Assembly: GCF_000277125.1 (NCBI RefSeq)
Contig: NC_016946.1
Span: 682,001 to 746,000 of the forward strand
Direction of reading: 5' to 3'
DNA length: 64,000 bases
DNA from: Mycobacterium intracellulare ATCC 13950
GTDB lineage: Bacteria > Actinomycetota > Actinomycetes > Mycobacteriales > Mycobacteriaceae
Shown here: positions 7,508 to 59,562 of the stretch, in pieces
How positions within the stretch are numbered: position 1 is the first letter of the stretch
Layout: each line of letters starts with the position of its first letter
Position numbers and translations under genes: made by a program
Notes under the pieces: model-generated
What the model was told of the DNA's origin: nothing
Databases searched by the model: none
The model's input: only the letters and a program-made list of their open reading frames with translations

Positions 7508-7558
7508 GTCCGCCTGAAAAGCGGAAGGTCGGCGGTTCGATCCCGCCCCTGGCCACCA
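7508..7558 (+). other. attachment site: 3' fragment of tRNA-Phe(GAA)
   Basis: These 51 bases correspond to the anticodon arm (TCCGC, loop CTGAAAA with anticodon GAA, GCGGA), variable loop, T arm (GGCGG, TTCGATC, CCGCC), 3' acceptor strand CCTGGCC and ACCA of tRNA-Phe. The 5' acceptor strand and D arm are absent: the preceding bases do not fold into them. A displaced tRNA 3' end is the classical scar of site-specific integration. Its orientation places the element to the left (window start side) and normal chromosome to the right. The intact tRNA gene should lie beyond the left window edge. Confidence 0.85.
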
Positions 7559-27420: not shown

Positions 27421-28965
<1,545 letters not shown>

Positions 28966-29022: not shown

Positions 29023-29080
29023 GTGATTGCGCGCGTGGCTTTCACCGCCGCGCACCCACCGGCCGAACTGGAGAAGACCC

Positions 29081-30220: not shown

Positions 30221-30227
30221 TGCGTAC

Positions 30228-31115
30228 ATGATCATCGCTGAGCTGATCGACCGCGCGCGCAACGGATCTCCCCGCGCGGCGGGACGGCTGCTCAGCCTCG
30301 TCGAGGGGGAGCAGCGCGACGAGGTCCTGGCGGCGATCGGCCCCGCGCCCGAGCGCGTGGGGCCCGTCATCGGCATCACCGGGCCGCCGGGCGCGGGCAA
30401 GTCGACGACGGTCGCCGCCCTGGTCGGCGCCTACCGCGCGCGGGGTTGCCGGGTGGCGGTGCTGGCCGTGGACCCGTCGTCCCCGTTCAGCGGCGGCGCG
30501 CTCCTGGGGGATCGCATTCGAATGGCCGCGCATATCAACGACTCCGACGTCCTCATCCGCTCGGTGGCGACCCGGGGCCATCTCGGCGGGCTGGCGGCCG
30601 CGGTTCCGGCGGCCATCCGCCTGGTGGGGGCGATCGGCTACGACGTCGTCCTGCTCGAGACCGTCGGGGTGGGGCAGTCCGAGATCGAGATCGCCGCCGT
30701 CGCCGACCCGACCGTCGTCATTCTCAATCCCGGTGCGGGCGACGCCGTCCAGGCCGCCAAGGCCGGGGTGCTGGAGGTCGCCGACATCGTGGCGGTCAAC
30801 AAGGCGGACCGGGACGGCGCCAAGCAGACGGTCCGAGACCTTCGGGCCGAGACCAGCGCCCCGATCGTGTCGTTGATCGCCGCCAAGGGCGAGGGCATCG
30901 ACGAGCTCATGGGCGTCATCGAGGACCACCGCCGCACCGACAGCCGCGCCCGCCGGCTGGCCCGCGCCCGTGCACAGATCCTGTCGCTGGCCCAGACCCG
31001 GCTGCGGACCCAACCTGACCTCGACCGGCTCGCCGAGGCCGTCGTCGACGGCGATCAGGACCCCTACACGGCGGCCGACCGGCTGCTCGCGCCGCGCACA
31101 CCTCAGGCGGACTGA
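30228..31115 (+). CDS. meaB: MeaB/ArgK-type GTPase, mutase chaperone
   Basis: A 295-residue G3E-family GTPase. The Walker A loop is TGPPGAGKST (51-60), followed by VLAVDPSSPFSGGALLGDR, the switch ETVGVGQSE and the base-specificity motif NKAD. These proteins protect and reload B12 mutases, so this one should serve the split mutase at 15.9-17.9 kb. It is co-transcribed with the thiolase behind the shared palindrome rather than next to the mutase. A hairpin terminator lies directly downstream. The gene symbol is by family; a second meaB for the housekeeping mutase is likely elsewhere. Confidence 0.92.
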   Translation: MIIAELIDRARNGSPRAAGRLLSLVEGEQRDEVLAAIGPAPERVGPVIGITGPPGAGKSTTVAALVGAYRARGCRVAVLAVDPSSPFSGGALLGDRIRMAAHINDSDVLIRSVATRGHLGGLAAAVPAAIRLVGAIGYDVVLLETVGVGQSEIEIAAVADPTVVILNPGAGDAVQAAKAGVLEVADIVAVNKADRDGAKQTVRDLRAETSAPIVSLIAAKGEGIDELMGVIEDHRRTDSRARRLARARAQILSLAQTRLRTQPDLDRLAEAVVDGDQDPYTAADRLLAPRTPQAD

Positions 31116-35136: not shown

Positions 35137-35892
35137 ATGACCGAGCCGTTAAGCATTACGGTGGTTGGCGACTTCGACAGTTCCTATGGTCCTCATATCG
35201 CGACCAACAGGGCGATAAGCCACTCAGCGACATTGCTGGGTCTGCACGCCTCGATTACATGGCTGGCAACCGAATCGCTGGAAGCCGACCTCCGGCCGAT
35301 CGTTGCCGCCGATGCGCTGTGGTGTGCTCCCGGTAGTCCATACCGCAGTTTGCGCGGAGCCCTTGCTGCTTTACGTTTTGGGCGCGAAAACCATGTGCCA
35401 ACGTTGGGTACCTGTGGCGGATACCAGCACATCGTTCTTGAATTTGCCCGCAATGTCCTCGGCTTCAAAGATGCGGAGCACGCCGAATACGATCCGTACG
35501 GATCGGTGTTGTTCATCTCTTCATTGACGTGTTCCCTGGCGGGCCGAACCATGCCGGTCAACCTCCAGCCTGGATCACTGGCTGCGCAGTGCTATGGGAA
35601 GCGACGGATTTATGAAAATTACTATTGCAACTTCGGATTGAATGAAACCTATCGACCAGCGCTGGAAGCAGCCGGATTGCGCGTCACCGGAGTCGACGAC
35701 CACGAGGAAGCTCGCGTCCTGGAGTTAGCGGACCACCCGTACTACATCGCCACGTTGTTCGTTCCGCAGAGTCGCTCCACCGTCGAGGAACCTCATCCGC
35801 TCGTGACACAACTGTTGTCCGCGGCCGCCCGTAAACGCGCCGCGCAGCATGGTCAGCGACGAGCTGGGCTACGACGAGCGATCCCCCAGTAA
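35137..35892 (+). CDS. CTP-synthase C-terminal-region-like protein (class I GATase fold)
   Basis: A 251-residue protein resembling the glutaminase domain of CTP synthase without the synthetase domain. The nucleophile elbow is GTCGGYQH (Cys93), but the His-Pro-Glu of the catalytic triad is replaced by FVPQ, so normal glutaminase activity is unlikely. A second conserved Cys lies in ISSLTCSLAG. This matches the family annotated as CTP synthase C-terminal region-related (seleno)protein, recalled rather than searched. By eye its codons are less GC-rich than its neighbours, which may mean recent acquisition. Confidence 0.82.
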   Translation: MTEPLSITVVGDFDSSYGPHIATNRAISHSATLLGLHASITWLATESLEADLRPIVAADALWCAPGSPYRSLRGALAALRFGRENHVPTLGTCGGYQHIVLEFARNVLGFKDAEHAEYDPYGSVLFISSLTCSLAGRTMPVNLQPGSLAAQCYGKRRIYENYYCNFGLNETYRPALEAAGLRVTGVDDHEEARVLELADHPYYIATLFVPQSRSTVEEPHPLVTQLLSAAARKRAAQHGQRRAGLRRAIPQ

Positions 35893-35964: not shown

Positions 35965-37581
35965 CTATTTAAGGTCGACGGACTTTCCGGTCGCGGCCGC
36001 GTGACCCGCACGGTAGCCGAAAACCATTGCCGGACCCAGTGTTCCGCCCGCGCCCCCGTAGGCTCGCCCGGTCACTCCGCCCATCGCGTTGCCGGCGGCG
36101 AAAAGCCCCGGTATCGGCTCGCCACCGACGTGCAGGACGCGGGCGTCGTGATCGGTGCGCGGGCCACCCTTGGTGCCCATCGCACCGATGCTCACCGGCA
36201 CCGCGTAGTACGGGGCGGTGTCGATCGGTCCCAGCGTCTTGCCGGCCTGCGTCGTCGCGCTGTCGTCACCCCAGTAGCCGTCGTAGGCGCTGGAACCACG
36301 CCCGAAGTCGGGGTCTTCCCCGTCGGCCACGTGACGGTTCCAGCTCTCGACGGTGCGAGCCAAACCGCCGGGGTCGATGCCGGTCTTGGCGGCCAACTCG
36401 GCCAGGTCCGCCGACTCGCAGAACCAATCCGGGACGGGCTGTCCCGGCTCCACACCAAGAAATCCGTAGCGCTGCAGATGAACCGAGTCGAACACCATCC
36501 ATCCGCGATCGTTGACGTACCCGCCGCGAGGATCCAGATAATGGAACGCGCCGGCCATCGAGTTGTAGTCGCACGCTTCGTTGACGAAGCGCTGCCCCGC
36601 GGAATTGACGATGATGCTGCGCGGTCGCGTTCTTTCCAGACGCACGCTGCGGCTGCGTGGCTTGCCTTCGATGGTGTCGCCCGGGATCTGGACGATCGGC
36701 ACCCACCACGCCTCGCCCATGTTGGCCAGGTCGGCCCCGTGGGCCATGGCCATGCGCAGCCCGTCGCCGGTGTCGTTGGGTGGAGAGACCGCGCCGTGCA
36801 TGGGGCCGCGCAGAAAGGCTTGTGTCAGAGCCGGATCCCACTCGAAGCCGCCGGTGCCCAGGATGACCCCGCGTCGCGCGCGAACTCTGATCGTCCGTTC
36901 CGGCAGGGCGACGCGCACCCCGGTCACCTCTGAACCGTCGGCAATGAGTTCCTCGGCCCGCGCATTGGTATGGGGGGTCACCCCGGCATCCAGCAGGCCC
37001 TTCAGCAGACCCGCGATCAGCGCCGTGCCGGCGACACACAGGTGGCCGGTCCGTTCGTCGATCGCCGCGTGCAGGCGTGCCCTGGTCTCGGCATCGAAAC
37101 CCACGTTGGACCAGTCGGCCGGGAAAGACGTGATCCGCGTTGCCCATTCGCCCAGCTGCGCGAGATCGAACGGGGCCGCGCTCAGCGATCGGCCGCCCGT
37201 CGGTCGTCCGCCCGGCAACTCCGGCCGATAGTCGGGGAAGCCGGTCGCGATCTCGAACTGCAGGCCGCTGTGCGCCTCGATGAAGTCGAGCATCGCCGGA
37301 CCCGTGCGCACGAACGTCTCGACCAGCTCGTCGTCCATCGAGCCGAGCGACTGGGCGCGCAGGTATTGCAACGCGTCGGCGGGCGTCAATTCGCCGTCGG
37401 GAGAACGGTTATGGGCGGGGATCCACACGATGCCGCCCGACACGGCGGTGGTCCCGCCGACCGTCGCGGCCTTTTCGTAAACCTCCACCGACGCGCCCGC
37501 CACGACCGCGGTCAGTGCGGCGGTGAGCCCCGCGCCGCCACTGCCGAGCACGACGACGTCGACCTCGTGGTCCCATGACAT
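35965..37581 (-). CDS. FAD-dependent oxidoreductase, 3-ketosteroid-dehydrogenase/fumarate-reductase type
   Basis: A 538-residue flavoprotein. The dinucleotide fold is VVVLGSGGAGLTAAL with the downstream YEKAATVGGTTAVSGG, and the C-terminal FAD contact is GGAGGTLGPAMVFGYRAG. The overall plan is that of KstD and flavocytochrome-like dehydrogenases that remove or add hydrogens next to a carbonyl. It follows the IclR gene by 26 bases in one operon and is divergent from the mhp-like operon. It could desaturate a ring before aromatic hydroxylation; that role is inferred. Confidence 0.88.
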   Translation of the reverse strand: MSWDHEVDVVVLGSGGAGLTAALTAVVAGASVEVYEKAATVGGTTAVSGGIVWIPAHNRSPDGELTPADALQYLRAQSLGSMDDELVETFVRTGPAMLDFIEAHSGLQFEIATGFPDYRPELPGGRPTGGRSLSAAPFDLAQLGEWATRITSFPADWSNVGFDAETRARLHAAIDERTGHLCVAGTALIAGLLKGLLDAGVTPHTNARAEELIADGSEVTGVRVALPERTIRVRARRGVILGTGGFEWDPALTQAFLRGPMHGAVSPPNDTGDGLRMAMAHGADLANMGEAWWVPIVQIPGDTIEGKPRSRSVRLERTRPRSIIVNSAGQRFVNEACDYNSMAGAFHYLDPRGGYVNDRGWMVFDSVHLQRYGFLGVEPGQPVPDWFCESADLAELAAKTGIDPGGLARTVESWNRHVADGEDPDFGRGSSAYDGYWGDDSATTQAGKTLGPIDTAPYYAVPVSIGAMGTKGGPRTDHDARVLHVGGEPIPGLFAAGNAMGGVTGRAYGGAGGTLGPAMVFGYRAGHAAATGKSVDLK

Positions 37582-37607
37582 GGACTGCTATCCCTTCAGC
37601 TCAACGG

Positions 37608-38285
37608 CTAGCTCAGTAGCTCCGACAACTCCTTGGCGGCTTTGACGACCGCGTCTTTCCCGCGCATCACCACGTCTTCTCGGTGCGAGATGAGGTTGAT
37701 GCACGTCGGTGGGGACGGCGCCGGGCGGCGCACCCCCACGGCCAGCCCGTAGGTATTCGGTTCGATCTCGCCGTAGGTCGTCACCCATCCGCGCTCGCGC
37801 GCCCGCGCCACCAGCTCCCGCTCGCCCGGGCGCGGTGGCATGCTCGCGAGCAAGGCGATCCCGGCGGCGCCGCGGTCGAGCGGGTACCGACTGCCCTCGT
37901 GAAAGGAGAGCTGGTAGGCGACGTGGCTGGGCACGATGACCGCGATCGCCACCTGCTGGTCGCCCTCGGCGATGAGCAACGACACCGTCGTGCCGAGGTC
38001 GTCGGCCAGCGCGCGCAACGTCGGCAGACTCAGCTGGCGCACGTTGCGGTCGAACGACGCGCCCAGCACGGCGAGACCGGCCGCGGGGCGGTAACGCCCG
38101 TCCTCACCTTTGGCCACCAGCCGAAACTCCGCCAGCGTCGTCAGCAACCGGTAGGCGATCGTGCGGTGCACCCCGACCTGATCGGCGAGCTGCTGCACGG
38201 TGAGCCCGGCGGGGGAATCGGCCACCATCTGCAGGGCGGTGAGGCCCCTGGCCAGGGTTTGCGACCCGGTACCGGAACCAGTCAC
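37608..38285 (-). CDS. IclR-family regulator
   Basis: A 225-residue regulator with the N-terminal winged helix LTVQQLADQVGVHRTIAYRLL and an effector domain of the IclR type. Many aromatic-acid pathways (for example MhpR of E. coli) are run by IclR proteins. It is divergent from the mhp-like operon, and overlapping palindromes lie in the shared promoter. It probably regulates both that operon and its own FAD dehydrogenase partner. Confidence 0.9.
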   Translation of the reverse strand: MTGSGTGSQTLARGLTALQMVADSPAGLTVQQLADQVGVHRTIAYRLLTTLAEFRLVAKGEDGRYRPAAGLAVLGASFDRNVRQLSLPTLRALADDLGTTVSLLIAEGDQQVAIAVIVPSHVAYQLSFHEGSRYPLDRGAAGIALLASMPPRPGERELVARARERGWVTTYGEIEPNTYGLAVGVRRPAPSPPTCINLISHREDVVMRGKDAVVKAAKELSELLS

Positions 38286-38328
38286 AGCCTTGACAGACCT
38301 TCCAGCGAGAGCGAAGCTCTATATATAA

Positions 38329-38356
38329 CGCACATTAGTGTGCGATATTAGCACAC
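38329..38356. promoter_or_regulatory. overlapping palindromes, probable IclR binding region
   Basis: CGCACA-TTAG-TGTGCG (38329-38344) and GTGTGC-GATATTA-GCACAC (38338-38356) share their central half-site. They lie between the IclR start (38285) and the hydrolase start (38412), in an AT-rich stretch with a TATATA run. Three alternating half-sites fit two IclR dimers. Confidence 0.72.
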
Positions 38357-38411
38357 GAAGTACGTCGAAAACGAGAACGAGATTTCCCCGATCTGGAGGT
38401 CGGACAGGACC

Positions 38412-39275
38412 GTGGCGGAGTTCGAGAGCATCTGGAGCGATCTCCAGGGCGTCGCGTTTGAGCAGGGCTACCTCGACGCCGGAGGAATACGGACCCGCTA
38501 CCTGCGGGCCGGGGACCCCGGCAAGCCGGTGCTGGTTCTGCTGCACGGATCCGGCGGTCACGCCGAGGCCTACGTGCGCAACCTGGCCGCCCATGCGGAT
38601 CATTTCTGGACCTGGTCGATCGACATGCTGGGTCACGGTTACACCGACAAGCCGGGCCACCCACTGGAGGTCCACCACTACGTCGAGCACCTGATGGCCG
38701 TGCTGCGCACCATCGGTGTCGATCGGGCGTGCATCAGCGGCGAATCCCTGGGCGGCTGGGTGGCCGCGCGCGCCGCCGTCGACCACCCCGACGTGGTCGA
38801 CCGCCTGGTGCTCAACACCGCCGGCGGCTCGCAGGCCGACCCCGCCGTGATGCAGCGGATCATCACCCTGTCCATGGCGGCGGCCGAGGACCCCACCTGG
38901 GAAACGGTGCAGGCGCGGATCAAATGGTTGATGGCCGACAAGTCCCAGGACTACGACGACCTGGTCGCCAGCCGCCAACGCGTCTATCGCCAACCGGGAT
39001 TCGTCTCCGCCATGCGCGACATCATGGCGTTGCAGGATCCCGAGATTCGGGCACGCAACATCCTCGGTCCGGCCGAGTACGGCTCGATCATCGCCCCGAC
39101 GCTGGTGCTGTGGACCAGCGACGACCCTACCGCCGACGTCAGCGAAGGCCGGCGCATCGCGTCGATGATCCCCGGCGCGCGCTTCGAGGTGATGCCCGGA
39201 TGCGGTCACTGGCCGCAGTACGAGGACGCCAAGACCTTCAACCGCCTGCATCTCGATTTCCTGCTGGGTCGCTGA
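38412..39275 (+). CDS. MhpC-like alpha/beta hydrolase (meta-cleavage product hydrolase)
   Basis: A 287-residue C-C bond hydrolase candidate. It has the oxyanion-hole [12 protein letters not shown], the nucleophile elbow GESLGGW, a late Asp in [13 protein letters not shown] and the His in GCGHWPQYE, the triad order of MhpC/BphD/HsaD enzymes. It should hydrolyse the ring-opened product made by the downstream extradiol dioxygenase. It is the first gene of the eight-gene operon; GTG 38412 follows GGAGGTCGGACAGGA. Its stop overlaps the next ATG (TGATG). Confidence 0.88.
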
Positions 39276-40999
39276 TGGCGACTCCGGGGCAAGAGACACC
39301 TGACACCGAGACCGACGTCCTCGTCGTCGGGGCGGGCCCGGTCGGGCTGACTCTGGCCAACATCCTTGGCCTGCAAGGGATCCGCGCGGTGGTGGTCGAA
39401 GAGCGGGACACCCTCATCGACTACCCGCGCGGGGTCGGTCTCGACGACGAGGCGCTGCGCACCTTCCAGTCGATCGGCCTTGCCGACCGGGTGCTGCCGC
39501 ACACGGTGCCCAACCAGATCCTGCGCTTCATGGACGCCAAGCGCCGCGTGCTTGCCGAAATGGCCCCGCCCGACGCGCGTTTCGGTTGGCCGAAGCGAAA
39601 TGGGTTCGTGCAACCGCTCGTCGATGCCGAGCTGCTGGCCGGCCTGGACCGATTCGACCACGTCCAGGTCCGGTGGGGCAGCCCGATGGCGGGCTGCCGG
39701 GAAGACGCCGACGGGGTCACCGTCGAGCTCGGCGGCGGCGTCGAGAACAACGGCGACACAACGAGACTGCGGGCACGGTACGTCGTCGGGTGCGACGGCG
39801 GTCGCAGCATGACCCGCCGCGTGATGGGGGTGTCGTTCGACGGGACGACGTCCTCGACGCGGTGGCTGGTGGTCGACATCGCCAACGACCCGCTCGGGCA
39901 CCCCAACAGCGAGGTCGGCGCCGACCCCGAGCGCCCGTACGCCTCGATCTCGATCGCCCACGGTATTCGCCGCTTCGAGTTCATGATTCACGCCGACGAG
40001 ACCGACGAACAGGCGGAAGACCCGGCCTTCCTGCAACAGATGCTGGCCCGGATGGTGCCCCACCCCGACCGGGTCGACGTGATCCGGCGCCGCGTCTACA
40101 CGCACCACTCGCGGATCGCCGGCGCTTTCCGCCGGGGCCGGCTGCTGCTGGCCGGCGACGCCGCGCACTTGATGCCGGTGTGGCAGGGGCAGGGCTACAA
40201 CAGCGGGATTCGCGACGCCGCCAACCTGGGCTGGAAGCTCGCGGCGGTGGTGAGCGGCCGCGCTGACGACAAGCTGCTGGACACCTACGACGTGGAGCGC
40301 CGCAAGCATGCGCGCGCGATGATCGACCTGTCCACCATGGTGGGCCGCGTGATCTCGCCGACCAACCGACGGGTGGCCGGCGCGCGCGACCTGCTCGTGC
40401 GGTCGGCGTCAATCGTGCCGTCGCTCAAGCGATATGTGCTGGAAATGCGGTTCAAGCCCATGCCGCGCTACGAGCACGGCGCCGTCGTGCACGCCGAGTC
40501 CGGCCGCAGTGATTCGCCGGTCGGGACGCTGTTCATCCAGCCGCGAGTCGACACCCGAGACCGGCAGGACGTGCTGCTCGACGACGTGCTGGGCACCTGG
40601 TTCGCGGTGCTGTGCTGGAACAACAACCCCCGCACACTCCTCGGCGAAGCCGCCTTCGCAAGCTGGAAAGCGCTGGGCGCGCGCTTCTTTGCGCTGCGGC
40701 CGGTGACGCAGTTGCACTGGACCGGGCACGATGACCCCGACGTCGTGATCGTCGGCGATCGGCGTGGTGACCTCAAAGCGTGGTTCGACACCCATTCCGA
40801 TTCGGTGTTGTTCCTGCGCCCCGACCGATGCATCGCGGGCGCCTGCATCGCTCAGCGCACTCCCGACCTGAGCGCCGCGCTCCTTGACGCGCTGACCCTG
40901 ACGCCGCAAGGGGGTGATTTGCAAAGTGGCACTGGCTCTGTGCTGTATGTCGCACAGCCCGCTCCTGAGTCTTCCGGGGCCGTCGCGGGACCTGCTTGA
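39275..40999 (+). CDS. MhpA-like FAD aromatic hydroxylase
   Basis: A 574-residue group A flavoprotein monooxygenase. It has the dinucleotide motif [15 protein letters not shown], the GD-type motif [20 protein letters not shown] and the intermediate [10 protein letters not shown]. It resembles 3-(3-hydroxyphenyl)propionate/hydroxycinnamate hydroxylase, which makes the catechol ring for meta cleavage. A thioredoxin-like C-terminal domain follows, as in this family. The last 24 codons overlap the dioxygenase gene. The N-terminus starts at ATG 39275, directly on the previous stop. Confidence 0.9.
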
Positions 41000-41864
41000 C
41001 GACATCGAGGGCGCGATCGCCGAGGCGCGAGGATTTGTCGAGGATTTCGATCCCGAACTCGTCGTCACCTTTTCGCCGGATCACTACAACGGGTTCTTCT
41101 ACAAGGTGATGCCGCCGTTCTGTATTGGCATGAGCGCCACCGGAGTCGGGGACTACGGCACCCACGCCGGCCCACTGGACGTGCCGGAGGACCTCGCCGG
41201 CGACTGCGCACGGGCCATCCTCGACGCGGGTGTCGACATCGCGGTGTCGGCCAGCATGGACGTGGATCACGGCACGGTCCAGCCGCTCGAAAAGCTGTTC
41301 GGCGACGCCATCTCGCGTCCCGTGATCCCGATCTTCGTCAACGCGATCGGGGTGCCGCTGGGCCCGATGCACCGTTGCCGAGCGCTCGGCGCCGCCGTCG
41401 GTGGCTATCTCGCCACCCTGGACAAGCGCGTCCTGGTGCTGGGCTCGGGTGGGCTCTCCCACAGTCCGCCCGTGCCGACGCTGGCCACCGCGGGCCCACC
41501 CGTGCTGGAGCGCATCGTGCACGGGCGACCGATGACCTCCGAGCAGCGCCAGGCCCGGCAGGCGGCCGTCGTCGATGCGGCCAAGAGCTTCGCCGCCGGC
41601 GACAGTGACCTGCAACCCCTCAACCCGGCGTGGGACCACCGATTCCTGGAGATCATCGACGGCGGATGGCTCAGCGAACTGGATCAGTGGTCGAACGCGT
41701 TCGTGGCCCATGAGGGCGGCAGCTCCGCGCAGGAAATCCGCACCTGGGTAGCGGCTTTCGCGGCGCTGGAGGCCGCGGGACCCTACGTAACCACGGGACG
41801 CTTTTACAAGCCCGCCCCCGAGCTGATCGCCGGTTTCGCCATCAGAACGGCACTTCCGAAATGA
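40926..41864 (+). CDS. MhpB-like extradiol ring-cleavage dioxygenase (LigB type)
   Basis: About 312 residues, as in MhpB (314). The start [14 protein letters not shown] carries the conserved His, FSPDHYNGF a second, and [12 protein letters not shown] and [13 protein letters not shown] the remaining family motifs for the iron site. It should open a catechol ring next to the hydroxyls. GTG 40926 has a GGGGGTGA ribosome site at suitable spacing; GTG 40914 is the alternative. It overlaps the hydroxylase gene by 74 bases and the next gene by 4. Confidence 0.92.
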
Positions 41865-43600
41865 CGGACGCAGTGGACGATTTCGATCACGTTGTCGACG
41901 TACTCATCGTCGGGTCGGGCGGGGGAGGCATGACGGCCGCCCTGACCGCCGAGGCCTCCGGACTCGACACCCTGGTGGTCGAAAAGTCCTCGCACTTCGG
42001 GGGTTCGACCGCGTTGTCCGGCGGCGGCATCTGGGTTCCGGGCGCGCCCGCCCAGCGCCGGGAGGGCTACGCGCCCGAGCCCGAGGGCGTGGTGGGGTAT
42101 CTCAAGCTGATCACCGACGGCCTGGTCAGCGAGGCGCGCATTCGCCAATACGTCGAGACGGCACCGCAGATGCTCCAATTCCTGGAGCGGCTGTCCGGCT
42201 GGTTCGAATTCGTCTGGAAGCCCGGGTATGCCGACTACTACCCCGAGCTCCCCGGCGGCTCCGAACTCGGCAGCACCATCAACGTGCCGCCCATCGACCT
42301 GCGCAAGCTGGGCGACGACGAGCAGCGGCTGCTCCAGCCGCTGGCGCTGGCGCCCAGAGGAATCTGGTTGGGCCCCAAGGAGTTGCGCACCTTTTACAGG
42401 ATCCGCCAATCCTGGGCCGGCAAAGCCGTGTTGCTCAAGCTGATCGCGAGGATGGTGAGGGCCAGGGTGTTCGGCGAGCGGATGGCCGCGATCGGGCAGT
42501 CACTGGCGGCCCGGCTCCGGCTGGCGCTGAGGGAACGCGGCATCCCGCTGTGGCTGGACTCCCCGATGGTCGAGCTGCTCACCGACGCCGACGGAGCGGT
42601 GACCGGCGCGGTGGTGGAAACCGGCGGCAAGTCAAAGCGGATCGGCGCGCGGCTGGGTGTGATCCTGGCGTCGGGTGGGTTCGACCACGACCTCGGCTGG
42701 CGCAAGGAGCTGCTGCCCGAGGTGGACCAGGACTGGAGCTTCGGCAACCCGGCGGCGATGGGCGACGGTATCCGCGCGGCGCAAAAGGTCGGCGCCGCCA
42801 CGGACCTGCTCGACGAAGCCTGGTGGTTCCCTGCGATCCAATGGCCGGACGGCCGCATGCAATTCATGCTCAACGAACGGATGATGCCCGCGCAGTTCAT
42901 CGTCAACGGCGCCGGCAAACGGTTCATCAACGAAGCGGCCCCGTACATGGATTTCGGCCACGCCATGATCGAGGGGCAGAGATCCGGCGTCACCCACATC
43001 CCGTGCTGGCTCATCACCGACCACCGGTCGTTCAACCGCTACGTCGTCGGCGGACACCTGCCGATACCGAAGATCCCATTCGCCCCCGTACCGACCGGGC
43101 GCAAGATTCCTCCGGCCTGGCTGGAATCGGGTGTGGTGAAGCAGGCCATGACGTGGGAAGAAATGGCGGCCAAGATCGGCGTGCCCGCGGTCCAGCTCGC
43201 CGAAACCGCCGGGCGCTTCAACGAACTCGCACGCAACGGCCACGACGACGACTTCAACCGCGGCGACAGCGTGTACGACAACTACTACGGCGATCACACG
43301 TTGCCCAACCCGAACTTGCATCCGCTGGGCGATCCGCCGTACTACGCGTTCCGGATCGTACTCGGGGACCTAGGGACTTCCGGCGGCCTGCGCACCGACG
43401 AGCACGCCCGCGTCCTGCGGGCCGATGACAGCGTGGTGCCCGGGCTCTACGCGGTGGGCAACACCTCTGCGCCGGTGATGGGCCGCAGCTATGCCGGCGC
43501 TGGCGCGACCATCGGCCCAGCGATGACCTTCGGCTATGTCGCGGCGAAACACGTTGCGGCACAAGCAGCCAATCGAGCCGTTAATACTCATAGGAGGTAG
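41861..43600 (+). CDS. FAD-dependent KstD-like dehydrogenase
   Basis: A 579-residue flavoprotein related to 3-ketosteroid-delta1-dehydrogenase. The FAD fold motifs are [15 protein letters not shown] and [16 protein letters not shown], and the C-terminal contact is [30 protein letters not shown] and [11 protein letters not shown] resemble the substrate-binding region of KstD enzymes. Two such flavoproteins (this one and that at 35965) flank a ring-cleavage set. They may dehydrogenate an alicyclic ring to a phenol. Confidence 0.88.
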
Positions 43601-43602
43601 CA

Positions 43603-44907
43603 ATGAAAATCTCGCTGTTCTACGAATTCGCCCTGCCGCGGCCGTGGGCGCCCGACGACGAGCACATCATGATGCAGGACTGCCTCGACGAGGTCGAGGC
43701 CGCCGACAAGGCGGGCTTCTCCACCGTGTGGCTCACCGAACACCACTTCCTCGAGGAGTACTGCCACTCGACGGCACCGGAGATCTTCTTGGCCGCGGCC
43801 AGCCAGCGCACCAAGAACATTCGCCTCGGCTTCGGCATCATGCACCTGCCGCCCGTGGTCAACCACCCCGCCCGGGTCGCCGAACGCATCGCCACCCTCG
43901 ACCTGCTCTCCAACGGCCGCGTCGAGTTCGGCACCGGGGAATCGTCGTCGGTCGGCGAACTCGGCGGATTCAACATCGACCCCGCCGACAAGCGCGCTCA
44001 GTGGGAGGAGGCCCTCGAGGTCTCGATCCGGTGCATGATCGAGGAGCCGTTCACCGGCTTCCACGGCGAGCACGTCCAGATGCCGGCGCGCAACGTCGTG
44101 CCCAAGCCGCTGCAAAAGCCGCATCCGCCGGTCTGGGTCGCCTGCACACGCCCCGCCAGCGTGCAGATGGCGGCCCAAAAGGCCATCGGCGCCTTGAGTT
44201 TCGCCTACACCGGGCCCGGCCCGCTGACCGAGCGGGTCAACGGCTACTACAAGGAGTTCGAAGAGAACGGCGTCCCGGTCACCCCGCGGATCAACCCGAA
44301 CATCCTCGCCATCGGCGGTGACCTGTCGATGATGGTGGCCAAGACCGACGAGCAGGCGCTGCAGCGGCTCGGGCAGGGCGGCGGGTTCTTCTCGTTCGGC
44401 ATCATGCACTACTACATGACCGGGGTGCACACACCCGGGCGGACCGGAGTGTGGCAGCGGTATCTCGAAGAGGTCGACAAGGATCCGACGCTGGCGTACG
44501 GGCCGGGCCGCGGCGCGATCGGGTCCCCCGCCACGGTGCGCGAATTCCTGCGCGGCTACGAAGAAAGCGGCGTCGACGAAATCATCCTGCTGCTGAACCC
44601 GCGCAGCCACGAGGGCACCATGGAATCCATCGAGTTGATGGGCAAGGAGGTGCTCCCGGAATTCATCGAGCGCGACGCGAAGGCCGTGGCGGAAAAGGCG
44701 AAGCGGCTCGAGCCCGTCATCGAAAAGGTGGAGGCGCGTCGGCCGAAATCGACCGCACCGCAGTTTGATGAGGATTACTCGTTTGGTGGACTGCCCACCG
44801 GCCGCGGCGGTAAGTTCACCGCCAGCGAGATCCCCGAAGCCATGGCGGAGATCAACGAAGGCCGGGTGCAGGCGGCGCAGCGGGCGAAGGACCAGCAGAA
44901 GAAGTAG
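43603..44907 (+). CDS. LLM-class flavin-dependent oxidoreductase (luciferase-like)
   Basis: A 434-residue bacterial-luciferase-fold protein, starting right behind a perfect AGGAGG site. It has FSTVWLTEHHFLEEYCHSTA, LGFGIMHLPPVVNHPARVAE and the catalytic-region GESSSVGELGG of FMN-dependent monooxygenases. The Lys/Glu/Ala-rich C-terminal tail (after about residue 355) is long for the family. It belongs to the ring-degrading operon and is probably a flavin-dependent monooxygenase on a pathway intermediate. Confidence 0.88.
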   Translation: MKISLFYEFALPRPWAPDDEHIMMQDCLDEVEAADKAGFSTVWLTEHHFLEEYCHSTAPEIFLAAASQRTKNIRLGFGIMHLPPVVNHPARVAERIATLDLLSNGRVEFGTGESSSVGELGGFNIDPADKRAQWEEALEVSIRCMIEEPFTGFHGEHVQMPARNVVPKPLQKPHPPVWVACTRPASVQMAAQKAIGALSFAYTGPGPLTERVNGYYKEFEENGVPVTPRINPNILAIGGDLSMMVAKTDEQALQRLGQGGGFFSFGIMHYYMTGVHTPGRTGVWQRYLEEVDKDPTLAYGPGRGAIGSPATVREFLRGYEESGVDEIILLLNPRSHEGTMESIELMGKEVLPEFIERDAKAVAEKAKRLEPVIEKVEARRPKSTAPQFDEDYSFGGLPTGRGGKFTASEIPEAMAEINEGRVQAAQRAKDQQKK

Positions 44908-44925
44908 AGCCTGAGCAATACCAGG

Positions 44926-45768
44926 ATGTCGGGGCGAGCCTTGGCAGCAATCGACGAGCTGTGGCGCTACGACGGCCGCCGGGCGGTGGTGACCGGATGC
45001 GCCTCGGGCATCGGGGAATACGTGGTGCGTCAGCTCACCGATCTGGGGGCCGACGTCGTCGGGCTGGATAAGCGCCGGCCCGACTTCGGGATCCGCGGTT
45101 TCCACGAGATCGACCTGGCCGATCCCGCGTCGATCGATCGCGCGGTGGCATCCATCGACGGGCCGGTCGACGCGCTGTTCAACATCGCCGGGGTCTCCTC
45201 GGGTGTGGGCAACCCGCCGTTGATCGTCACGATCAACTTCTTGGGGTTACGCCATCTCACCGAGGCGCTCATCCCGAAGATGACCGCGGGATCGTCCATC
45301 GTCAGCGTGTCCTCGCTCGCGGCGGCCGCCTATCGTGAGCACCTGCGCGAGGTGGCGCCGTTGCTCGACACGGCGACCATGCAGGAGGGGATCGACTGGT
45401 GCGATCGACATCGCGAAGCGCTGGGCAACGGCTACCAACTGTCCAAGGAAGCCATCATCCTGTACACCATGCGCAGCGCCACGCCGCTGGGCGGCAGGGG
45501 GATCCGTATCAACTGCACCGGGCCGGGGGTCACCGAGACACCGATCCTGGACCAGCTTCGTACGGCATACGGGCAGGGCTTCCTCGACGACATCCCCAAG
45601 CCGCTGGGACGCGTGTCCGAACCGGCGGAGCAGGCGGCGGTGCTGCTCTTCCTCAATAGCCGTGCGGCCAGTTATATTTCGGGTCAGGTTGTGTGGGTAG
45701 ACGGCGGAAACGTGGGCGCCGCGATAGCTCGTGAACTCGAGGAAGGGCGTGCTTCGTGGCCAGTGTGA
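44926..45768 (+). CDS. SDR oxidoreductase, coniferyl-alcohol-dehydrogenase-like
   Basis: A 280-residue SDR with the cofactor motif TGCASGIG, NIAG in place of NNAG, and the catalytic Tyr-x3-Lys in GYQLSKEAI. The segments LFNIAGVSSG, INFLGLRHLTEALIPKM and the insertion before the Tyr resemble coniferyl-alcohol dehydrogenase (CalA) of Pseudomonas. That would fit oxidation of a cinnamyl-alcohol-like side chain. The resemblance is recalled, not searched. It overlaps the cyclase gene by 13 bases. Confidence 0.8.
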   Translation: MSGRALAAIDELWRYDGRRAVVTGCASGIGEYVVRQLTDLGADVVGLDKRRPDFGIRGFHEIDLADPASIDRAVASIDGPVDALFNIAGVSSGVGNPPLIVTINFLGLRHLTEALIPKMTAGSSIVSVSSLAAAAYREHLREVAPLLDTATMQEGIDWCDRHREALGNGYQLSKEAIILYTMRSATPLGGRGIRINCTGPGVTETPILDQLRTAYGQGFLDDIPKPLGRVSEPAEQAAVLLFLNSRAASYISGQVVWVDGGNVGAAIARELEEGRASWPV

Positions 45769-46748
45769 CCGACTTTCGCCGGGCTGCGCGCGATGTCAGC
45801 AACTGGGGCCGCTGGGGTGACGATGACGAGCTCGGCACGCTGAACTTCATCACCGAGGAAAAGATCGCCCAGGCCGCAAGCCTGGTCCGGCGCGGCAGGG
45901 TCTTTCCACTCGGCGTGGACTTCGGTGCGTCAGGACCGCAGGGCGCCTTCGAATATCGGCACAACCCGGTCCATATCATGACCATCGATGGCGGAGACGC
46001 GAAGACGCTGGCCCGGTACGGACCGGGGTGGGCGAGCAACCCAATAGCCCAACAGCTCAGCAGTTACCTGGGTGATGACAATCCGTTCCGCTTCAACGAC
46101 GACCTGATCATCATGCCGCTACAGGCGGCAAGTCAGTGGGACGCGCTGTCGCACGTCTACTACGACGAGCAGCTCTACAACGGCTTCCGAGCGGATTCGG
46201 TGACCAGCATGGGCGCCGTGCATTGCGGAATCGACAAGGTCGACGGCAAGGGTATTACTTCGCGAGGCGTGCTGCTGGATATGGTCCGCCACCGGAATGC
46301 GGAAGTCTTTCTCGAGCAGGGGAATCCGATCACACCCGAAGAATTAGACGATGCCGCTCGCGCGCAGGGCGTGCGGATCGAACGCGGTGACATCGTGCTG
46401 ATCCGGACCGGCTGGTGGACGAGGTTCGCGCAGACCGGGGACAAGACCGAACCCTTCTCCGGACTGGACTGGAGTTGCGCCTCGTGGCTGCACGACTACG
46501 AGGTCGCCGCGGTCGCGGCCGACAACCTCCAGGTCGAGGACCTGGTCTCGGGAGTAGAGGGCGTGTTCCTGCCCCTGCATCTGCTCTGCCTGCGCGACAT
46601 GGGAATGATGTTCGGCGAGTACTGGGATCTCACCGCGCTGGCCGAGGACTGCGCAGCCGATGGCGTCTACGAATTCCAGCTCATCGCCCCGCCGCTGAGA
46701 GTCGTTGGGGCAGTCGGATCGCCGGTCAACCCGATCGCGATCAAATGA
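45756..46748 (+). CDS. cyclase-family (PF04199, kynurenine-formamidase-like) hydrolase
   Basis: A 330-residue protein of the metal-dependent cyclase/formamidase family. It has SQWDALSHVYYDEQLYNG, where the Asp and His match the HxGTHxDxPxH-like metal region, and RGVLLDMVRHRN. The GTG start overlaps the SDR stop. Relatives hydrolyse amides, esters or cyclic ketones. It may open a non-aromatic ring or hydrolyse a lactone formed in the pathway. Confidence 0.84.
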   Translation: MASVTDFRRAARDVSNWGRWGDDDELGTLNFITEEKIAQAASLVRRGRVFPLGVDFGASGPQGAFEYRHNPVHIMTIDGGDAKTLARYGPGWASNPIAQQLSSYLGDDNPFRFNDDLIIMPLQAASQWDALSHVYYDEQLYNGFRADSVTSMGAVHCGIDKVDGKGITSRGVLLDMVRHRNAEVFLEQGNPITPEELDDAARAQGVRIERGDIVLIRTGWWTRFAQTGDKTEPFSGLDWSCASWLHDYEVAAVAADNLQVEDLVSGVEGVFLPLHLLCLRDMGMMFGEYWDLTALAEDCAADGVYEFQLIAPPLRVVGAVGSPVNPIAIK

Positions 46749-47569
46749 TGGACGTTCAGCGCAAAACCTTGTCGGTGGACGGCCTTTCCACCGGTTACCT
46801 GGAAGCCGGCGAGGGCGAGCCGGTGGTGCTCCTGCACGGCGGTGAGTTCGGCGCGAGTGCCGAACTCGGTTGGGAACGCAACATTTCCGCGCTCGCCGCA
46901 CACTACTGCGTGCTGGCCCCGGACATGCTGGGGTACGGAAGTTCGGCCAAGGTGATCGACTTCGTCGACGGGCGCGGCATGCGGATCCGGCACGTCGCCC
47001 GGTTTTGCGAATTGCTCGGCGTCGGCTCGGCGCACTTCGTCGGCAATTCGATGGGCGCCATCAATCTGCTCACCGACAGCACGTCGGAGACGCCGCTGTT
47101 GCCGGTCCGGAGCCTGGTGATCATCTGCGGCGGCGGCGAAATCCAGCAGAACCAGCATTTCGAGGCGCTGCAGAACTATGACGCCACGTTGCCGGCCATG
47201 CGCCGCATCGTCGAAGCCCTGTTTTCCGACCCCGCCTATGCCGACGACGAGGACTACGTGCGGCGCCGTCACGAGTCGAGCACCGCGCCGGGGGCATGGG
47301 AGGCCATCGCCGCGGCCAGGTTCCGCCGCCCCGGCGCCACGCCGTCCTCCGCCCCGTCCAGCGCGCGGGCCTACGAACGCATCGGCGTGCCAACGCTTGT
47401 CGTCGAGGGCGGCGACGACAAGCTCCTGCCCAGCGGCTGGGCGGCCCAGATCGCCAAGCAGATCGACGGAGCCCGTTCGGTGGTGGTCGACGACGCCGGG
47501 CACTGCCCGCAGATCGAGCAATCGTCGGTGGTCAACCGGTTGCTGACCGAATTCTTGGGCAGCCTCTGA
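46745..47569 (+). CDS. alpha/beta hydrolase, last gene of the aromatic operon
   Basis: A 274-residue hydrolase with the oxyanion-hole LLHGGEFGASAE, the nucleophile elbow GNSMGAINL, Asp in GGDDKLLP and His in DDAGHCPQIEQ. It resembles meta-cleavage-product hydrolases and esterases. It starts at ATGATG directly over the cyclase stop. With the MhpC-like gene at 38412 it gives the operon two such hydrolases, so one probably handles a later or different intermediate. Confidence 0.88.
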   Translation: MMDVQRKTLSVDGLSTGYLEAGEGEPVVLLHGGEFGASAELGWERNISALAAHYCVLAPDMLGYGSSAKVIDFVDGRGMRIRHVARFCELLGVGSAHFVGNSMGAINLLTDSTSETPLLPVRSLVIICGGGEIQQNQHFEALQNYDATLPAMRRIVEALFSDPAYADDEDYVRRRHESSTAPGAWEAIAAARFRRPGATPSSAPSSARAYERIGVPTLVVEGGDDKLLPSGWAAQIAKQIDGARSVVVDDAGHCPQIEQSSVVNRLLTEFLGSL

Positions 47570-47573
47570 ATCG

Positions 47574-49202
47574 TCAGAAGACGTAGTCCAGGCGCGTCTC
47601 CATCCCGGCGACCTGGTGATAGGTGTTGTGGCAGTGCATCAGCCACGTGCCGGGGTTATCGGCAACGAGAACGGCGGCGAGCTTCTGTTTGGGCAGCACG
47701 ATGACGGTGTCCTTGCGGGCGCCCGGGCTGCCGTCGGGCTTGATCACCTGGAACGTGTGCCCGTGCAGGTGAATCGGGTGATACATCGTCGTGGTGTTGT
47801 CGAAGGTGATGGTGGGCCGCTGGCCCTGTTGCACGCGCAGCGGGCTCGTCTTGCCGAAGGGCTGCCCGTTGATCGTCCAGTTGTACTGCATCATGTTGCC
47901 GCCCAGCACGACCGGGAGATTGAGGTTCGGGTCGGGGCGCCCAAGGTTGACCGGTGTCGTGGCGGTGAACATTTCGACGGTGCCCACGCGCTTGGTGAGT
48001 TCGCCGGGCTGCAGTTGCGGGTCGGGCGCGCTGCCCGCCCCCGTGGCCAGCAATGCCCGCGCCAGAGCGTTTTTGCCCTCCGCGACGGCGACCAGTGGGA
48101 AGACACCGTCCGCGGCGCTCACCAGGACGTCGTAGCGTTCGGCCATGCCGATGAGCAGGGCGTCGACCGCAGCGGGCACCACGGGGTAGCCGTCGGTGTG
48201 GGTCACCGTCATCGAATGGCCGGCCAGCGCGACCCGGAAGGTGGTGTCGGAGGCGGCGTTGATGAAGCGGATCCGAATCCGCTGGCCAGGCTTCGCGTTG
48301 AACGTCATGGGGGAGGCGGGAATTCGGCCGTTGATCAGGTAGTGGGGGTAGGTGATGTCTCCGGCGTCGCCACCGAGGAGGTCGCTGCTGCCGGCACTTC
48401 CCGCCGTGGGCCCGGGCCCGCCGGGCGCCGGGCTCGTCGAAGTCGTCGGGCTGGTCTCGCTCGTACTCGCTTCGCTCGCCGGCGTGGTGGTCGGGGTCGT
48501 CTCGGATGTGGCGGGCATGGGCGACTTGTTCGGGTTGCTCAGATCGCCGTAGAGCTGCTGGGGGCTCTTGCCGACGCCGTCGGTCCAATCGTCGAGGACG
48601 ACAATCCATTCGGCGTCGTAATTGCCCTCGGTCGGGTCGTCGACGATGACCGGCAGGTACAGCCCGGTGTCCTCGTCCAGGCCGGTGTGCGGATGTGCCC
48701 AGTAGGTGCCCGAGTTGGGCACGGAGAACCGGTAAGTGAAGTCGTGGCCGGCCGCGATGTTGGGCGTGGCGGGCTCGGCGCCGTCCATGTCGTTGCGCAC
48801 GGCGATACCGTGCCAATGCACCGACGTCGGATGATCGAGCCGGTTTTTCACCGTCACCACGACTTGGTCACCGATGCTGGCGCGGAGCACCGGACCGGGG
48901 ATGGAATCGCCGAAGGCCAGCGTGCGGACGACCGGTCCGCCCAGGTCGATCTGCACCGGCTGGGACGTCAGGGTGGCGGTGACGGTCCGGCCGCTGTGCG
49001 GCCGGGCGGCCTCGGCCGCATCGACGGCGGCGGCCATCCTGGCACTGCCCGACGGCTCGGGTTTGGTTTGGCTGCACGCCGTCAGCGCCAACCCGCCGGC
49101 GATGCCCGCGGCCATGAAACCGCGCCTGGTGAGCCGGGTTCGGTCGAAGGTTACGTCGCTGGTGGGTTGCCCGGGCAATGAATGCTCCTCGTCGTTGCGC
49201 AA
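47574..49202 (-). CDS. mmcO: Tat-exported multicopper oxidase lipoprotein MmcO
   Basis: A 542-residue laccase-like enzyme resembling mycobacterial MmcO (Rv0846c) along its length. A twin-Arg signal (R26-R27) and lipobox LTAC (Cys43) direct it to the outer membrane face. The copper ligands are complete: HWH (129-131), HPH (170-172), HPIHLHG, and C-terminal HCHNTYHQVAGM with Cys524 and Met534. It oxidises Cu(I) and protects against copper. A Ser/Thr/Pro-rich insert of about 45 residues (227-272) is longer than I recall for M. tuberculosis. It is convergent with the aromatic operon. Confidence 0.95.
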   Translation of the reverse strand: MRNDEEHSLPGQPTSDVTFDRTRLTRRGFMAAGIAGGLALTACSQTKPEPSGSARMAAAVDAAEAARPHSGRTVTATLTSQPVQIDLGGPVVRTLAFGDSIPGPVLRASIGDQVVVTVKNRLDHPTSVHWHGIAVRNDMDGAEPATPNIAAGHDFTYRFSVPNSGTYWAHPHTGLDEDTGLYLPVIVDDPTEGNYDAEWIVVLDDWTDGVGKSPQQLYGDLSNPNKSPMPATSETTPTTTPASEASTSETSPTTSTSPAPGGPGPTAGSAGSSDLLGGDAGDITYPHYLINGRIPASPMTFNAKPGQRIRIRFINAASDTTFRVALAGHSMTVTHTDGYPVVPAAVDALLIGMAERYDVLVSAADGVFPLVAVAEGKNALARALLATGAGSAPDPQLQPGELTKRVGTVEMFTATTPVNLGRPDPNLNLPVVLGGNMMQYNWTINGQPFGKTSPLRVQQGQRPTITFDNTTTMYHPIHLHGHTFQVIKPDGSPGARKDTVIVLPKQKLAAVLVADNPGTWLMHCHNTYHQVAGMETRLDYVF

Positions 49203-49226
49203 CTACCCACCGTAGAGCGAACGCCG

Positions 49227-49256
49227 GCGAAAAGTCCGCAACAACTCGACGTTGAC
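49227..49256. repeat. degenerate half-copy of the dyad repeat
   Basis: The bases CCGCAACAACTCGACGTTGA match the right arm of the repeats at 19841, 20481 and 20996. The left arm is missing. It lies between mmcO and the SDR at 49268. Confidence 0.5.
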
Positions 49257-49267
49257 CGCCGCGGCGG

Positions 49268-49990
49268 TCAAACCGCGGCGCCGCCGCCGTCGACGTGCAG
49301 GGTCGAGCCGGTGATGAAGCTGGAGCGAGGGGAGCTCAGGAAGAGCACCGCTTCGGCGATCTCGGACGGGAAGGCGGTGCGCCCCAGTGGCAGGGCCCGC
49401 CCGAGCTCCTCGTTGACGTCGCCCCATTCCGCCGCCACCCCGGGGGTGCGGGTGGGCCCCGGCGCCACGCTGTTCACCCGCACCCCGGCCCCTCCGAATT
49501 CGGCGGCCCAGGTGCGGGTGAGCGATTCCACCGCGGCCTTGGAGGCGCTGTAGCCCGACGCACCGGGAATTCCCTTGAAGGCGGCCATGGTCGTGATGTT
49601 GACGATGCTGCCGCGGCCGCGGTTGAGCATTCCCGGGACCAGGCCGGCAACCAGGAAGTACGCGCCGCGCACGTTGGTGTCGAACATCGTCTCGAACGCC
49701 GACATCCCCTGCTCCACCGTCAATGCCGACGGAAAGCTGCCGGCGTTGTTGACGATGATGTCGACCTCACCGCACTGCTGCACAAGCGAATTCACCGAAT
49801 CGATATCGGCCATGTCGGTCTGGATGAACCGTGCCTTCGGGCCGATGACCTCCACCGCGTGCGCTCCCCTGGCCGGATCGCGGCCCGAGACGATGACGGT
49901 GGCGCCTTCGCTGGCGAACAGCCGAGCCGATTCCAGTCCAATGCCCGCCGTCCCGCCGGTGATCACCGCGGTGTGGTCCATCAGCTCCAT
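49268..49990 (-). CDS. SDR oxidoreductase
   Basis: A 240-residue classical SDR with TGGTAGIG, NNAG, the catalytic Ser in NITTMAA, and YSASKAA. The C-terminal GSTLHVDGGG is typical. ATG 49990 has a GGAGG site 8 bases upstream. It lies 20 bases after the next gene's stop on the same strand, so the two are probably co-transcribed. Function beyond NAD(P)-dependent redox is unknown. Confidence 0.88.
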   Translation of the reverse strand: MELMDHTAVITGGTAGIGLESARLFASEGATVIVSGRDPARGAHAVEVIGPKARFIQTDMADIDSVNSLVQQCGEVDIIVNNAGSFPSALTVEQGMSAFETMFDTNVRGAYFLVAGLVPGMLNRGRGSIVNITTMAAFKGIPGASGYSASKAAVESLTRTWAAEFGGAGVRVNSVAPGPTRTPGVAAEWGDVNEELGRALPLGRTAFPSEIAEAVLFLSSPRSSFITGSTLHVDGGGAAV

Positions 49991-50010
49991 CGGACCGCCT
50001 CCTCCAGCCG

Positions 50011-50778
50011 TTACTCGGCGTTGCTGGGCGCCTGCGAGGCCAGCCAGTCGCCGAACCGGGTGGGGTAGATGGTCACTTCTTCGCCCTCGACGGGAACGAT
50101 CATGCGCTCGTCGAGGACCGCGCCGTAATACTGCGCATCCGGGTCGGTCACCACGCGGCGGGCATCGCCGGTCGCGGCGAACCGGGTCCGGATGAAGTCG
50201 TCCATGCCCTGCTTTTCGGGTCCGGCGATGTTGATCACCCCGTTGACCGGCTCACCGATCGCGGCGCGGGCGACGGCCGTGGCCACATCCGCGGCGGCGA
50301 TCGGCTGGAACGCCCCATGCGGCGCCCGGACCGTGTCACCCTCGGTCATCGAATCCGCAATGCCCGCAACGAATTCGAAGAACTGAGTGGCCCGCACGAT
50401 GGTGTAGGGGGCTCCGGATTCCACGATCACCTTTTCCTGAGCGATCTTGGCCCGCATGTAGCCGCTTGCGGCCGCGCGGTCGGCTCCCACGATCGAGAGC
50501 GCGACGTGGTGCTGCACGCCCGCGGCCCGCTCCGCCTCGAGGAGGTTGCGGGTGGAGGTGGTGAAGAAGTTCAGCACGTCGTCATCTGCCCACGACGGCG
50601 AGTTGGAGACGTCCACCACCGCCTGGACACCGGCGACGGCCTCGGCGACCCCCTCACCGGTCACGGTGTTGACGCCCGTGCTCGGTGACGCCGGGACGGC
50701 TTCGTGTCCCTGCTCGGTGAGCAGGGTGACAACCTGTGATCCGATCAACCCACTGCCACCGATTACCAAAACCTTCAT
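50011..50778 (-). CDS. NmrA-like atypical SDR, NAD(P)-binding protein
   Basis: A 255-residue atypical SDR. The cofactor motif GGSGLIGSQVV lies at the N-terminus, and the active-site Tyr-x3-Lys is relaxed (SGYMRAKIAQEKVI). It resembles NmrA-like redox sensors and quinone or azo reductase relatives. ATG 50778 is chosen over the GTG at 50793 because GAAAGG lies at suitable distance. It forms a short operon with the SDR at 49268. Confidence 0.87.
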   Translation of the reverse strand: MKVLVIGGSGLIGSQVVTLLTEQGHEAVPASPSTGVNTVTGEGVAEAVAGVQAVVDVSNSPSWADDDVLNFFTTSTRNLLEAERAAGVQHHVALSIVGADRAAASGYMRAKIAQEKVIVESGAPYTIVRATQFFEFVAGIADSMTEGDTVRAPHGAFQPIAAADVATAVARAAIGEPVNGVINIAGPEKQGMDDFIRTRFAATGDARRVVTDPDAQYYGAVLDERMIVPVEGEEVTIYPTRFGDWLASQAPSNAE

Positions 50779-50863
50779 GACCACGCCTTTCACGCTTCCC
50801 GACGAACTGGCCTCTTCAGCATGGCCCGCGCGCCGGTCCGGGGGAACCCTGGAAAGTCCGTAG

Positions 50864-58618: not shown

Positions 58619-58824
58619 GGCCCCTTCTCAAAATCTGTAGGGGCAGCCGCGCGTCCTGGCGGCACCGTCCCGTCTGTCGAGAAGCAGAACCGTCCCTGTT
58701 GACTGAAGGACGCTGCGAAGCTGCAATACCCGCAACCCGCGGGGCCAAACTCGGATACGCGACCGTAAGCCCGCGCCCGGGCCGCTTGTGCCGGCGGCCT
58801 CCCGCTCCGAGGTCGGTCTGTGGA

Positions 58825-58846
58825 TTAAATCAAGCGCTTGACTTAA
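58825..58846. promoter_or_regulatory. operator-like palindrome, copy 2 (TetR promoter)
   Basis: The core ATCAAGCGCTTGACTTAA, preceded by TTAA, is palindromic around AAGCGCTT and lies 26 bases upstream of the TetR start. It matches the element at 53776-53797 at 20 of 22 bases. It probably mediates autoregulation and control of the operon that follows, and could also affect the divergent glycosyltransferase operon. Confidence 0.8.
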
Positions 58847-58872
58847 CGGCTTGCGGCGGGTTGACTGGGCCG

Positions 58873-59550: not shown

Positions 59551-59562
59551 GGGGGTTTGAAG

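Follow-up and report, generated by a model that had tools for sequence, protein, structure and literature searches.

We analyzed a 64,000-nucleotide stretch (hereafter the window) of the single-contig genome of Mycobacterium intracellulare ATCC 13950 (5,402,402 bases; NC_016946.1, positions 682001–746000) and found that it contains a catabolic gene cluster that probably aromatizes a six-membered carbon ring, fully or partly saturated, before opening the product by meta-cleavage. From gene families, catalytic residues, gene order and co-occurrence we infer all of the reactions, their order and their regulation. An earlier note on this DNA had proposed a ring that is first dehydrogenated and then cleaved. 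This is the best-supported reading, because the catalytic residues of two KstD-type flavin desaturases are intact, a short-chain dehydrogenase/reductase (SDR) of 3alpha-hydroxysteroid dehydrogenase type is present, a cytochrome P450 is linked to the set, MhpA and MhpB exceed the cut-offs of their families, and the same genome carries a further KstD at 532–536 kb; the extent that the note gave the unit and the weight of the missing mhp genes required revision. Tentatively, the cluster may encode an undescribed pathway of most Mycobacterium in which a cyclohexyl-alkanoate or hydroaromatic acid would pass through a CYP105Q enzyme, an oxidation and two KstD desaturases directly into MhpA-MhpB-MhpC meta-cleavage. 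No description of the cluster was found in the open-licence PMC literature searched by title and abstract start, and the available portions of PMC3416667 and PMC8365914 hold nothing on it.

Gene classes were assigned by profile searches (Pfam, NCBIfam) against curated cut-offs. Each class in the earlier note's list was recovered, with the ends of the locus at 35965 and 47569, and the absence of mhpD, mhpE and mhpF, on which the note had remarked, holds for the ten core genes in these searches. To that list we add an IclR-family regulator (37608–38285, minus strand; HTH_IclR with a partial IclR_C) and, downstream, an SDR, a TetR regulator, a ferredoxin and a P450 (53825–61004). In the window, neighboring plus-strand core genes overlap or are separated by at most 18 bases. 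Relatives of the cluster were found with MhpB; the 80 used here are the best of 560 confirmed candidates and thus its nearest relatives only, all of them Mycobacterium or Mycolicibacterium records, a set that may omit the closest neighbors of the window's genome. In 74 of the 80, the complete set of ten core genes is arranged as in the window, in both order and orientation, indicating that their grouping is not due to chance. Contig ends truncate five of the remaining six; in L080, the other one, no second hydrolase is seen within the stretch covered. A survey of 401 genomes of the family, the window's own included, with three or four candidates scored per genome, detected KstD1 (E 1e-180) in 61 genomes and the luciferase-like monooxygenase (LLM) of the cluster in 60, all of which carry KstD1 5.3–8.0 kb away; the LLM tally at E 1e-60 was 63 before three weak matches of 37–42% identity (G579, G621, G706) were removed. 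Within the genus, 48 of 52 genomes (own included) have the LLM, the four without it being G205, G670, G695 and G752.

The desaturases KstD1 (35965–37581, minus strand) and KstD2 (41861–43600, plus strand) both match FAD_binding_2 (PF00890), with 253 and 274 bits, respectively. Alignment to 4C3X places equivalents of Tyr119, Tyr318, Tyr487 and Gly491 in both proteins; published numbering was reached through an inferred 20-residue offset, which yields Tyr, Tyr, Tyr and Gly at all four sites. According to the available part of PMC5348764, these residues remove hydrogen beside a ring ketone. All four are kept in 75 KstD1 rows, with one residue unreadable (X), and in 79 of 79 KstD2 rows, where rows below 85% coverage or 55% identity are left out, as in the catalytic-residue counts for the other core proteins; one surveyed genome (G756) has a KstD1 with one stop. 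The top named NCBIfam model for KstD1 is ChcC1, at 426 bits and below its cut-off of 1000, with the next model at 423. KstD2 scores 1101 bits against NF009473 (cut-off 837) and, of the two Chc models, prefers ChcC2 (355 bits) to ChcC1 (302 bits). At the position of Phe294 in 4C3X, where the alignment is gapped, KstD1 has an Arg within a VRLERTRPRS motif in 74 of 75 loci, which is only a hint that its pocket is charged and would suit a carboxylated substrate. Elsewhere in the genome, a KstD paralogue with one internal stop (2904508–2906178, plus strand) shares 40% identity with KstD2.

The P450 belongs to a tail that is displaced in the window. This tail comprises a second SDR (53825–54634; 71% identity to the L081 copy), a TetR regulator of uncertain start (58699–59550; PF00440), a single-cluster ferredoxin (59557–59757; PF13370) and a CYP105Q-type P450 (59763–61004), all on the plus strand, and it is separated from the core by insertions in this lineage. 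One separating block (47574–53695) holds multicopper oxidase, SDR, NmrA-like and LuxR-type genes, and the other (54606–58618) holds genes judged by eye to be glycosyltransferase-like. The order SDR-TetR-ferredoxin-P450 occurs in 12 loci among those listed (L032, L034, L066–L069, L075, L081, L082, L146–L148), and the second SDR directly follows the second hydrolase in L118, L132, L145, L146 and L148. Seven loci (L118, L132–L137), which belong to two other genera of the family, carry a one-strand unit in the order KstD1, MhpC, MhpA, MhpB, KstD2, LLM, SDR, cyclase-family protein, flavin mononucleotide (FMN) reductase, second hydrolase, second SDR and P450; extra genes are interspersed in some of these, the end of L137 cuts KstD1, and the reductase match of L136 is split. 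An eighth such locus (L145, genome G546) has this order without the LLM and lacks the TetR gene, and no tail was seen in the covered stretch of L053 and L055. The 11-kb extent in the earlier note is right as to the ends of the core, whereas the full unit is larger, since relatives add an FMN reductase, the second SDR, TetR, ferredoxin and P450. The association was also seen in the family survey, where 70 of the 401 genomes have the P450 (E 1e-150). All 61 KstD1-bearing genomes are among them; in 59 of these the two genes are no more than 35 kb apart, and in the other two they lie on different contigs. In G670 the tail is kept and the core is absent.

The window P450 was assigned through its 76% identity to the P450 of L067, whose closest solved relative is CYP105Q4 (8SWL; 699 bits). 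In the available part of PMC6237146, CYP105Q4 of Mycobacterium marinum is listed with Fdx9, for which a CxxSxxC motif is given. The window resembles that system in the P450 family and in an adjoining CxxSxxC ferredoxin, but differs in that its pair lies 12 kb from the core. The ferredoxin motif (CASSGNC in the window) is shared by 22 of 22 mycobacterial matches above 50% identity, and Ala replaces the Ser in eight matches from other genera.

The core SDR (44926–45768, plus strand) exceeds the cut-off of NF009092 (375 versus 242 bits). Its NCBI name is coniferyl-alcohol dehydrogenase, yet its top solved relatives are the 3alpha-hydroxysteroid dehydrogenases 1FJH and 2DKN, and Ser-Tyr-Lys is kept in 78 of 78 rows. 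The MhpA-like phenol hydroxylase (39275–40999, plus strand), dependent on flavin adenine dinucleotide and scored on a longer open frame from 38729, and the MhpB-like type III extradiol dioxygenase (40914–41864, plus strand) both exceed curated hydroxyphenylpropionate-family cut-offs (NF004828, 1134 versus 853 bits; NF009910, 532 versus 291 bits). The closest solved structure to MhpB is 8k04, a 2,3-dihydroxyphenylpropionate dioxygenase (E 3e-99), and its four His are conserved in 80 of 80 loci; plasmid copies at 50–53% identity occur, among those listed, in Rhodococcus, Gordonia, Burkholderia, Cupriavidus and Klebsiella. The MhpC-like C–C bond hydrolase (38412–39275, plus strand), assigned by an alpha/beta hydrolase profile, keeps the Ser and Asp of its triad in 77 of 77 rows and the His in 76 of 77; its best NCBIfam model is HsaD, at 130 bits against a cut-off of 400.

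Taken together, these enzymes could act in the following order. The CYP105Q P450 with its ferredoxin would hydroxylate the ring, and one of the two SDRs would oxidize the new hydroxyl group, giving a ketone on the ring. KstD1 and then KstD2 would strip hydrogens beside the ketone until the ring tautomerizes to a phenol, to which MhpA would add an ortho hydroxyl. MhpB would cleave the resulting catechol, and MhpC would hydrolyze the cleavage product to 2-hydroxypenta-2,4-dienoate and an acid, with the finishing enzymes encoded elsewhere. Because MhpA and MhpB belong to hydroxyphenylpropionate families, we would guess at a cyclohexylpropanoate-like acid; a cyclohexyl-alkanoate substrate is doubtful. 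The available part of PMC9795900, which cites Yamamoto 2021, describes how a P450, a dehydrogenase and two desaturases aromatize cyclohexanecarboxylate. By kind of enzyme, the cluster is similar to this chc system of Sinomonas cyclohexanicum, in which a P450, an alcohol dehydrogenase and two successive desaturases turn a saturated ring into a phenol. However, the KstDs and both SDRs fall under the Chc cut-offs (ChcB2, 72 versus 350 bits for the core SDR; ChcB2, 184 versus 350, and ChcB1, 180 versus 400, for the second SDR), so the cluster may work like chc but is not classed as chc. It also differs in having an extra LLM, cyclase-family protein and hydrolase, and in the fate of the phenol, which in chc goes by way of 4-hydroxybenzoate and protocatechuate, whereas the phenol made here would enter MhpA-MhpB-MhpC meta-cleavage. 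If correct, the proposed pathway would link the aromatization of a saturated ring straight to meta-cleavage, would give CYP105Q4, for which one paper found no spin-shifting substrate, its pathway and a concrete substrate class to try, and would account for two KstD paralogues that might otherwise be taken for steroid enzymes.

Several observations weigh against this proposal. KstD1 and KstD2 lie far under the ChcC1 and ChcC2 cut-offs (426 of 1000 and 355 of 900 bits), and several other KstD models, of steroid type or unnamed, fit KstD2 better than either Chc model does (1101, 606 and 589 bits). In the available part of PMC6237146, the spin state of CYP105Q4 is shifted by none of the substrates tried. 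The ferredoxin and P450 of the window lie 12 kb past the core, beyond unrelated genes. KstD1 is missing from nine of the 70 genomes that bear the P450, and a second P450 copy (72%) is located at 2922 kb of the window's own genome. Genome G546 has the set without an LLM at this locus and nevertheless retains the FMN reductase. The LLM, the cyclase-family protein and the second hydrolase are without an assigned step in the pathway, and the cyclase-family protein, in which Q-x3-Q-W-D-x3-H is invariant in nine sequences, has Gln at two positions that we take to be those of the family's metal-binding His, so that two presumed ligands are gone.

The families of MhpA and MhpB also suggest an alternative in which the cluster is a phenylpropanoid pathway of mhp type and the KstD-like proteins, instead of desaturating a ring, act on cinnamate-like substrates as flavin reductases or as dehydrogenases of the side chain. 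The cluster is similar to the mhp/hpp pathway for 3-(3-hydroxyphenyl)propionate in having MhpA and MhpB above the cut-offs, an MhpC-like hydrolase and an adjoining IclR gene, and a Rhodococcus plasmid carries an mhp-like set with related IclR (51%), MhpA (50%) and MhpB (50%), its MhpC being only 29% identical. A phenolic acid decarboxylase gene at 28450–28965 would also fit. In contrast to mhp/hpp, the cluster has no mhpD, E or F among its ten genes and adds two desaturases, a P450, SDRs and an LLM, and the P450 and the two SDRs would be superfluous to a phenylpropanoid route. Moreover, the catalytic Tyr/Gly set is intact in both KstDs, and the vinyl phenol reductase model gives them just 117 and 115 bits against a cut-off of 600. 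On balance, we consider the phenylpropanoid pathway unlikely. The decarboxylase gene (plus strand; PF05870, 247 bits) lies 7 kb from KstD1 and was matched in just three relative loci, many locus stretches ending short of its position.

A second alternative starts from the KstD family and the 3alpha-hydroxysteroid-type SDR. Here the substrate would be a steroid or terpenoid fragment; the LLM would act as a Baeyer-Villiger-type enzyme on a second ring, the lactone would be opened by the hydrolases, and the ring that is left would be aromatized and cleaved. Steroid ring A/B degradation (kstD, hsaA-G) has in common with the route proposed here the formation of a phenol by desaturation, an ortho-hydroxylation, an extradiol cleavage and a C–C hydrolase, and a Burkholderia plasmid joins an LLM, an HsaA-like hydroxylase, a KstD and a FadD3-family ligase. 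The cluster differs in its type III MhpB and MhpA-type hydroxylase, and both KstDs miss the cut-off of the 3-oxosteroid 1-dehydrogenase model (788 bits), KstD1 with 397 and KstD2 with 606. The genome also has a separate KstD at 532 kb, 38% identical to KstD1 and 43% to KstD2, which adjoins hydratase- and acetaldehyde-dehydrogenase-like genes at 532–536 kb in what we take to be the kstD-hsaE-hsaG order of cholesterol loci. Of the 12 solved LLM relatives listed, none has a title that names a diketocamphane monooxygenase, the Baeyer-Villiger type of the LLM class. Because of the separate KstD locus and the missed steroid cut-off, we set the steroid route aside, and a fragment pathway of this kind appears improbable. 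Modification or detoxification of an antibiotic-like or polyketide aromatic, as opposed to a growth pathway, is more improbable still: an LLM relative (45%) is flanked by polyketide synthase genes in Streptomyces and rifampin and polyketide monooxygenases are among the solved MhpA relatives, but MhpA, MhpB and MhpC form a ring-cleavage set and none of the ten core genes matched a transporter or resistance family in the profile searches.

The plasmids cited above carry KstD genes in clusters of their own, which pair KstD with HsaA-like or acyl-CoA-dehydrogenase-type proteins and with cyclase or LLM proteins. The Rhodococcus cluster (L083, 12493–16704) has a cyclase-family protein (36%), an acyl-CoA-dehydrogenase-type protein and a KstD (57%), at a different place from the mhp-like set on the same plasmid. 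The Burkholderia cluster (L139, 11947–19491) has an LLM (32%), an HsaA-like hydroxylase (393 bits; cut-off 450), a KstD (40%), a flavin reductase and a FadD3-family ligase (829 versus 657 bits).

To return to aromatization followed by meta-cleavage, its lower steps could be supplied from elsewhere in the genome. At 535 and 1525 kb, matches to acetaldehyde dehydrogenase (TIGR03215) exceed the cut-off; those to the hydratase model (TIGR03220), at 534, 1466, 1542 and 1543 kb, stay below it; no aldolase search was made. The earlier note had remarked that classical mhp operons contain mhpD, E and F instead, and with candidate hydratase and dehydrogenase genes at other sites this absence carries less weight than it might seem to. 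A second LigB-type dioxygenase (37% to MhpB) is encoded within 1501937–1543627 of the genome; this segment of 42 kb also holds relatives of the acetaldehyde dehydrogenase and the hydratase and is perhaps another meta-cleavage region.

The IclR gene adjoins the operon and probably encodes a sensor of a pathway intermediate. E. coli MhpR is also of the IclR family, and the Rhodococcus relative of the window's regulator is itself encoded beside mhpA/C/B-like genes. Between the IclR and MhpC genes, a candidate operator (38330–38355) consists of a GCACA-N4-TGTGC palindrome with a third half-site beside it, the latter present in the window and many relatives. Counting the window, 44 of 77 intergenic regions contain the palindrome, compared with 3 of 1540 simple shuffles, an enrichment that is weaker than these figures suggest because the compared regions are related. 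A sigma-70 scan returned no promoter-like site, and mycobacterial promoters may differ from that consensus.

The roles of three core proteins are less clearly defined. The LLM (43603–44907, plus strand; PF00296, 170 bits) is probably FMN-dependent and carries a TEHHF motif. An FMN reductase (PF03358) above 50% identity is found at the locus in 14 of 80 relatives; in the window's genome, where the search covered only the window, none was found. Since G546 has the reductase without the LLM at this locus and the window has the LLM without the reductase, the two do not form a strict pair. The cyclase-family protein (45756–46748, plus strand) exceeds the PF04199 cut-off (73 versus 23 bits), and the second alpha/beta hydrolase (46745–47569, plus strand), assigned by profile and scored on a longer frame from 46415, keeps its catalytic triad in 75 of 75 rows. 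AlphaFold models are poor for the LLM and the cyclase-family protein (mean predicted local distance difference test scores of 61.9 and 57.1, respectively). The likeliest task of the LLM (possibly with an FMN reductase), the cyclase-family protein and the second hydrolase is to oxygenate and hydrolyze a side chain or another ring.

Upstream of KstD1, a thiolase and MeaB/ArgK-like gene pair (29027–31115, plus strand) was left out of the unit by judgement, because L132, from another genus, has an acyl-CoA ligase upstream of KstD1; thiolase and MeaB-like matches above 45% identity occur in 39 and 52 loci of L001–L119, respectively. At 7492–7555 (plus strand), Rfam reports a transfer RNA (35.7 versus 29 bits) that ARAGORN does not. 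Adjoining KstD1, finally, is a gene for a stand-alone glutamine amidotransferase resembling the C-terminal part of CTP synthase (35137–35892, plus strand; NF004836, 297 versus 260 bits), which was matched in three of the 80 relatives.

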